46,664 bases of DNA. Source: Gammaproteobacteria bacterium (lineage in GTDB: Bacteria; Pseudomonadota; Gammaproteobacteria; Eutrophobiales; Eutrophobiaceae). Position numbers and translations under genes: made by a program. A model generated the notes under the pieces. The model did not search any database. It was not told where the DNA came from and worked only from the letters and a program-made list of their open reading frames with translations. How positions within the stretch are numbered: the first letter of the stretch is position 1; each line of letters starts with the position of its first letter. The DNA lies in NCBI GenBank assembly GCA_016193395.1, contig JACPSH010000024.1, positions 1 through 46,664 of the forward strand. The letters run 5' to 3'. Of this stretch, positions 35,289-46,664 are shown piece after piece.

Positions 35289-35325
35289 ACGCGCGGCGGC
35301 GCATGATCCGGACAGCTAATAGGCT

Positions 35326-35436
35326 GATGCAAAAGTCCGTCCATGGACTTTTGCATCGCGCTTCGGCCAAAGCGGAGCTTCGGCCTCGCTCCATTTATCA
35401 AGCACTGGCGTGCTTGATAAATGCTGCGTCCCATCC
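35326..35436. repeat. hairpin-array repeat, copy 2
   Basis: A 13-bp perfect hairpin, GATGCAAAAGTCC (35326-35338) with 35345-35357 around GTCCAT, comes first. A G/C-rich segment with the word GCTTCGGCC twice (35360-35368, 35378-35386) follows. A 12-bp perfect hairpin, TTTATCAAGCAC (35394-35405) with 35410-35421 around TGGC, ends it. Positions 35369-35436 are identical to 46546-46613 except for one base (67 of 68). The repeat runs into the first five codons of the kinase gene. Confidence 0.85.
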
Positions 35437-45345: not shown

Positions 45346-45393
45346 GACCGTTCCCGCCGGAGGGCCGGCTGCATCAGGTCATCGTTCATGGAT

Positions 45394-45639
45394 GCTCTGA
45401 ACAAGTCCGTCCGGGACTTGTCAGAGCACGGCAGAAATGTGCTGCTGCGATTTCTGCATTCCCGCCATCCGTGGCGGTCAGCGCGAAAAGTGTGATTTTC
45501 GCTTTCCTTCATTTTCCAATCGCTTACGCGATCGGAACGCAGAAAGCCGCTCCTGCGCCTTCTGCATTCCCGCCATCCATGGCGGTCATGGCCGTACGTC
45601 CTTGTACGGCAGGAACCTCTGAACTTGTTCAGAGGTTCC
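45394..45639. repeat. hairpin-array repeat, copy 3 (nine hairpins)
   Basis: The gap from 45346 to 45677 is filled by nine consecutive hairpins; 45346-45393 shows nothing. They are: 45394-45427 (ACAAGTCC around GTCCG), 45431-45457, 45462-45477 (CCGCCA around TCCG), 45483-45502 (GCGAAAA around GTGTGA), 45519-45532, 45539-45565, 45570-45585 (CCGCCA around TCCA), 45591-45610 (GCCGTAC around GTCCTT), and 45612-45639 (12-bp stem GGAACCTCTGAA around CTTG). Modules shared with copy 1 occur in the same order. The pair GCAGAA-type plus CCGCCA-type hairpins occurs twice and looks inserted. Confidence 0.85.
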
Positions 45640-45640
45640 C

Positions 45641-46433: not shown

Positions 46434-46454
46434 TGCGCCTGCGGTTAGCAGATT

Positions 46455-46664
46455 GATGCAAAAGTCCGTCAGACCGCCATGGACGGCGGGAATGCAGAAA
46501 ATGCAGGAGCAATTTTCTGCCGGACTTTTGCATCTCGCGTCAAGCAAAGCGGAGCTTCGGGCTCGCTCCATTTATCAAGCACTGGCGTGCTTGATAAATG
46601 CTGCGTCCCATCCGACCGCCAGGGATGGCGGAAGTGCAGATTTCGCAGGAGCAGGAAATCTGCC
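46455..46664. repeat. hairpin-array repeat, copy 4 (runs to window edge)
   Basis: A 13-bp stem GATGCAAAAGTCC (46455-46467) pairs with 46522-46534. Its loop holds a 49-bp unit with two more hairpins (46474-46489, 46494-46520). After that come GGAGC (46551-46555) with GCTCC (46565-46569), a 12-bp stem TTTATCAAGCAC (46571-46582) with 46587-46598, CCGCCA (46616-46621) with 46626-46631, and GCAGATTTC (46636-46644) with 46655-46663. The stretch 46546-46613 matches 35369-35436 at 67 of 68 bases. The window ends in the last hairpin. Confidence 0.85.

Follow-up and report, generated by a model that had tools for sequence, protein, structure and literature searches.

The loop of hairpin H, whose 13-bp stem is part of a MITE-like family of elements, is occupied in four known copies by a second repeat, here called X. 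The two repeats are distinct: X, which is 49–51 bp long, is a different and widespread repeat that is conserved by its structure. Our preferred reading, to which we give a probability of about 0.6, is that of nested small repeats: a MITE-like host copied in trans, and a guest, X, which settled once in an H loop and likewise in other loops. The window (the whole stretch of DNA analysed, 46,664 nucleotides) is contig C58 of a 2.7 Mb genome and contains a filled as well as an empty copy of H.

In the filled copy, the 5' arm GATGCAAAAGTCC at 46455–46467 and its reverse complement, the 3' arm at 46522–46534 (both + strand, located from the sequence by arm search), form a perfect 13-bp stem around 54 nt. 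This loop (46468–46521, +) reads GTCA, then X (46472–46520, +; 49 bp with two hairpins), then C. The same stem encloses only the six bases GTCCAT at 35326–35357 (+; arms 35326–35338 and 35345–35357). Both hairpins and the full 49-bp unit inside one loop are thus as described in the original prediction. Four arm copies with up to two mismatches are present in the window, just those of the two hairpins, where 0.73 are expected (1 of 100 shuffles reached four). The exact arm occurs 69 times in the genome, its reversed control not at all, and the filled stretch folds much better than its own shuffles (z −6.4). The unit recurs in the window at 45431–45479 and 45539–45587 on the strand opposite to the H-loop copy, and as a 50-bp variant at 46614–46663 on the same strand. 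The predicted reverse orientation of the unit in the loop therefore applies relative to the copies at 45.4–45.6 kb only, and not to the copy at 46614–46663. Collections of plasmids and phages gave no match to window positions 46440–46664.

For a census of H in the window's own genome, all places with an exact arm and all sites found by DNA similarity were fetched; hairpins were accepted with at most three mismatches per arm and at most four in total. Among the 50 loops in these sampled loci, 45 have 6 nt, one has 5 nt and four have 54 nt, the latter being filled by X. The 6-nt loops have a common consensus. A pattern scan of contigs, with the loop length set to 5–61 nt, gave six H hairpins in other genomes, and all six are empty. 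Among named records, the hairpin has exact copies in two Gammaproteobacteria MAGs, one of which is from groundwater according to its isolate name; the organism of the window is probably of this kind too. Because 46 of the 50 own hairpins and all six elsewhere are without X, the empty H is ancestral and the filled H derived. This agrees with the predicted pair of a filled and an empty site; the count proposed along with it gave four filled copies and 46 without X, and not a genome in which all other copies carry the insert.

The four filled copies (the window copy, L044, L053 and L056) have identical junctions, one orientation and 0–3 differences in 80 bp, and their flanks show no similarity to one another. 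As junction and orientation are shared, the sequences near-identical and the sites unrelated, these copies are the result of one filling event that was later propagated, not of repeated targeting of the H loop. The pair of filled and empty hairpins, from which targeting had been concluded, does not demonstrate it by itself. The small target duplication that was to be looked for (GTC on the left, C on the right) does not flank X: GTCA stands on the left and C on the right, and the six loop bases are replaced at the junction and not merely interrupted. On inspection by eye, a template switch via the shared word CCATGGAC was discarded, as the observed junction does not fit. L053 is a solo filled hairpin of 100 bp with ATAG on both sides, which speaks for mobility of the filled unit. 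Its joined flanks were compared with relatives and an orthologous empty site was not found; the right flank matches on the gene side, the left one in short dispersed stretches only. Pairs of empty and filled sites are seen between repeat copies, none between orthologous sites. In a tree of 22 full-length elements, the window copy and L044 are neighbours (82/85) and L056 is placed apart; outside hairpin H, 14 of 79 positions differ between the window copy and L056. These differences require exchange of modules besides transposition, and by sequence comparison the filled H module has probably passed from one element to another in addition to travelling with its carrier.

The host, which has no gene of its own, is either a solo hairpin of 43 or 52 bp or a modular element of about 170–273 bp. 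Its size classes (give or take one or two bases) correspond to the end hairpin alone (43 bp), H alone (52 bp), H with X (100 bp), the series H, B, Hp4 and end hairpin (170 bp), X in the Hp4 loop (221 bp), X in both H and Hp4 (270 bp) and two X in Hp4 (273 bp). The filled H of the window lies in a copy of the H-B-Hp4-h type (46445–46664, +), which starts with TTAG-CAGATTGATGC and is cut by the contig end; its complete relatives, L044 and L056, have 270 bp each. Hp3 of module B (CATTTATCAAGCAC-TGGC-GTGCTTGATAAATG) was placed at 46569–46600 (+) from the sequence and the fold of L056, and its stem, judged by eye, changes on both sides between copies. The 5' arm of Hp4, GCGTCCC, and the loop start ATCC follow at 46603–46613 (+), the 3' arm being beyond the contig end. 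The second X copy (46614–46663, +) is in this Hp4 loop, and the contig ends one base later. Besides the window (46614–46664), L063 also has a contig end (C44) in or just past a repeat copy; in such places X or the host element interrupts the assembly. The element with the empty H (35316–35436, +) is truncated inside the Hp4 loop, where it breaks off after GCGTCCCATCC, exactly X's place in other elements.

The ends of the host read YTAR-CAGG...CCTG-YTAR, with the end word CAGG..TGATGCAAAA. The terminal inverted repeats characteristic of a MITE are present as CAGG...CCTG, with no more than one mismatch per end, in 60 of 64 curated elements, and 185 end-like sites compare with 7 control sites. 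The 4-bp target duplication is exact in 25 of 60 elements (mean of permutations 8.1; none of 2000 reached this count), and the 52 elements with a non-palindromic left end have 22 direct versus 2 inverted 4-bp matches. The four terminal bases of the host have thereby been shown to be a target duplication. The usual terminal words, CTAA and TTAG, represent YTAR, which is the target reported for IS5 (PMC10359306). When the window's own genome was searched for DDE_Tnp_1 (PF01609), the one DDE family used, there was no match; a transposase acting in trans would copy the host, which is IS5-like in its target only. The plan of the host element recurs in a sister family whose ends are GTTGAAAAA. As a separate observation, the stop codon of an open reading frame of at least 80 codons is located exactly in the terminal 4 bp in 34 of 63 elements, always at bases 2–4 (own-genome loci include L040, L044, L053, L056 and L093); for control YTAR sites in the same loci the figure is 25 of 75. 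Stop codons seem to serve the MITEs as docking places.

X consists of two hairpins, CCGCC-ATGGAC-GGCGG followed by GCAGAAAAT-GCAGGAGCA-ATTTTCTGC. A profile built from eight own copies identified 119 full-length X among the loci examined, in which some places are represented twice. In 20 chosen copies, paired cells amount to 93.6%, nine of 14 pairs are changed on both sides, and covariation is 0.430 compared with 0.149 for shuffled data (0 of 500 as high) and at most 0.113 when slid. The conserved letters are those of the loops, CATGGA or CAGGGA and GCAGGAGC. In an Rfam scan, every match of X was far below the gathering score. A DNA query including X has matches in 34 of 96 genomes, the own genome included; beyond this genome and G003, coverage of the query among the matches listed is almost confined to the X parts. 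The contexts of X are numerous and unrelated to one another, and they include genomes in which the H arm word is rare or missing. In the own and most related copies, inspected by eye, the ends are GACC...CTGC, and no GTAG or CGTC word is present there. The bases to the left of X vary (ATAC, GGAC, ATCC, CCAT, GTCA, CGGT), so that X has no fixed target word, unlike IS200/IS605.

That X goes into loops gains support beyond the H copy, because it occupies other loops as well and is enclosed by stems more often than expected. The empty form of Hp4 is GCGTCCC-ATCCCT-GGGGCGC; in the filled form, X stands between ATCC and CTGGGG. Six of the 22 full-length elements have an empty Hp4 (170–171 bp) and the others are filled once or twice at the same junction. 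Placed on the tree, the two states need three changes, two of them forced by starred branches. L083 has an X-less Hp4 within an X-bearing clade (97/92), and the tree suggests precise loss of X from this loop. At a place homologous to Hp4, the loops of the sister family are either empty and CCGGTGCATCCCTGCACCGG-like or filled with X, and this filling and that of Hp4 may be one old event. X also lies in the hairpin-1 loop of another X, just 5' of the 3' arm of the latter (L097, L170 and L172 of relatives). In L104, X is inside an outer stem CCTCC/GGAGG, which is a different pair from that of the inner X, so the outer copy is a different X. Across the 96 genomes, the opener-opener word was counted 26 times in G003 and five times in G019, both of genus g4, and once each in the own genome and G006. 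The outer hairpin in G006, AAAGCCA-GGGAC-[X]-TGGCTTT, is not an X. Openers and closers of nested X are unbalanced in genus g4 (five and two in L171, one and two in L168), which suggests that slippage also acts. L087, at about 939–1240 (C55:81564–81843), holds an array of X copies with extra 13-bp GACCGCCMGGGAT openers, 10 openers and four closers in all.

A stem of at least 5 bp directly encloses X in 11 of 46 contexts (permuted 3.0, maximum 9) and one of at least 7 bp in five (permuted 0.35), with 0 of 500 shuffles as high in either case; the same-genome contexts L182 and L183 among the 46 are not fully independent. An earlier, looser stem test had given only a weak signal in its counts, with scores of at least 6 in nine of 31 contexts compared with 6.6 expected, although the mean score was above every permutation. 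A folding test with 115 of the 119 X was suggestive, with a mean of 7.5 enclosing pairs versus 3.8, from a clustering that had merged unlike contexts. The original prediction, that X moves and targets the loops of other modules, is partly supported by Hp4, the sister family, hairpin 1 of X and unrelated hairpins together with this excess. It does not hold throughout, however: no stem of 5 bp or longer directly surrounds X in 35 of the 46 contexts, and one X site, of which empty versions exist, lies at the base of a stem. That site belongs to a third composite family, present in the window at about 45390–45640 (−) with ends near TAAGGAACCTCTGAACAAG ... CTTGTTCAGAGC; its hairpins are unlike H in sequence and similar in plan, and it carries X at two sites, site 1 (45431–45479, −) and site 2 (45539–45587, −). 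At least six copies are empty at site 2 (L088, L090, L091, L092, L094, L159) and four are filled, X having entered at the stem base and not in the loop.

Under the nested-repeat reading, the MITE-like palindrome would be copied by a trans-acting transposase with duplication of a 4-bp YTAR target. One X would once have settled in the tip loop of one H, without target duplication, by which the loop became GTCA...C. As its stem and ends were kept, the filled H would have stayed mobile or exchangeable and could reach four unrelated places. Further X copies would have entered the loops of Hp4 and of X itself, as well as unrelated hairpins, typically near the 3' arm. The route of X may lead through the single-stranded DNA of an extruded or lagging-strand hairpin, the loop of which would be the exposed target; or it may be that a host is able to spread further only after an insertion into a loop. 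The observations are compatible with either. X might even be a minimal mobile element that lands on a structure, the single-stranded hairpin tip, and not on a sequence, docking on palindromic repeats of the host and also on hairpins of X itself, and so spreading with the carrier MITEs; we put this joint proposal forward tentatively and think it unlikely to be the full truth.

The prevalence of loop sites could also result from survivorship, a serious competitor to which we give a substantial chance, if well short of even. X would then land, or be illegitimately joined, anywhere, and the loop copies alone would keep the palindrome that the host needs to spread. The filled H and Hp4 copies are multi-copy because the host spread, and both the 35 contexts without an enclosing stem and the stem-base insertion of the third family speak for this explanation. 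Enclosing stems, however, are also found in contexts met only once, in other genomes (L114, L121, L122), and X is nested in X, where amplification by a host MITE is no reason.

Alternatively, X might be immobile itself, exchanged between composites by recombination or template switching, with nesting arising from slippage at hairpins. The filled H units are indeed near-identical although the remainder of the window copy and L056 is not, and the X-less Hp4 of L083 and the unbalanced openers and closers of L168, L171 and L087 fit as well. We nevertheless consider this account doubtful in view of the many unrelated contexts of X, some in genomes nearly or entirely devoid of H arm words, and of L104, whose differing outer and inner stems were not built by simple homologous exchange.

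That a RAYT moves X as an ordinary REP is improbable. X is palindromic and dispersed, and Y1 transposase genes are present in 54 of 96 genomes, but a search for X in 31 Y1-transposase loci (91 kb; 29 among the relatives' matches listed and two loci of one own gene) gave no significant match (best E 0.16), and the RAYT idea was rejected on this absence. The ends of X lack GTAG and CGTC words, and the single Y1 gene found in the own genome is flanked by a repeat other than X. This gene is at 1215–2125 of L165 (C22), between inverted copies of the repeat GGGGACAGATTTATTTT. The analysis found no transposase for X. An ancestral filled hairpin from which the 6-nt loops arose by deletion, as X-bearing Hp4 loops next door and the precise loss suggested by the tree might intimate, is very improbable given the H census, the common 6-nt consensus and the near-identity of the filled units.

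A guest repeat in a palindrome is in itself already known, since REPs were described within palindromes of three species: GTAG-15 in A. variabilis, GTAG-23 in T. roseum and CGTC-1 in H. neapolitanus (Di Nocera et al., 2013; PMC3733652). Unfilled target palindromes are reported there for T. roseum only. Like REPs of the GTAG and CGTC superfamilies, X is a short palindromic repeat found inside palindromes; unlike them, it combines two different hairpins and lacks both a GTAG/CGTC tag and a RAYT close by, its host hairpins are present both empty and filled, and X nests in X. To that description our analysis adds that several hairpins exist in an empty as well as a filled state, that the guest nests in itself, and that enclosing stems are in statistical excess across contexts. 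The host resembles bacterial MITEs with an IS5-like target (PMC10359306) in its terminal inverted ends, 4-bp YTAR duplication and absence of a gene; it differs in having several hairpins in exchangeable modules and solo end hairpins, and no DDE_Tnp_1 gene was found. Insertion sequences use REPs as targets, so that palindromic repeats are landing sites (PMC1525189), whereas the guest studied here is a 49–51-bp non-coding unit. Word searches for the arm, X and end words, in open-licence literature, retrieved no relevant paper. BOX elements of streptococci are modular, with a variable number of internal units. This plan is common to BOX and our host element, in which, unlike in BOX, the variable unit sits in loops and is a dispersed repeat itself.

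Loop choice by X, if real, would provide a natural example of structure-guided insertion of non-coding DNA and would shed light on the way in which nested hairpins build up mosaic palindromic repeats. The X copies supply pairs of empty and filled sites, which make the question of loop choice testable. If survivorship alone is responsible, the copies still suggest that the spread of bacterial palindromic repeats depends on an intact stem.
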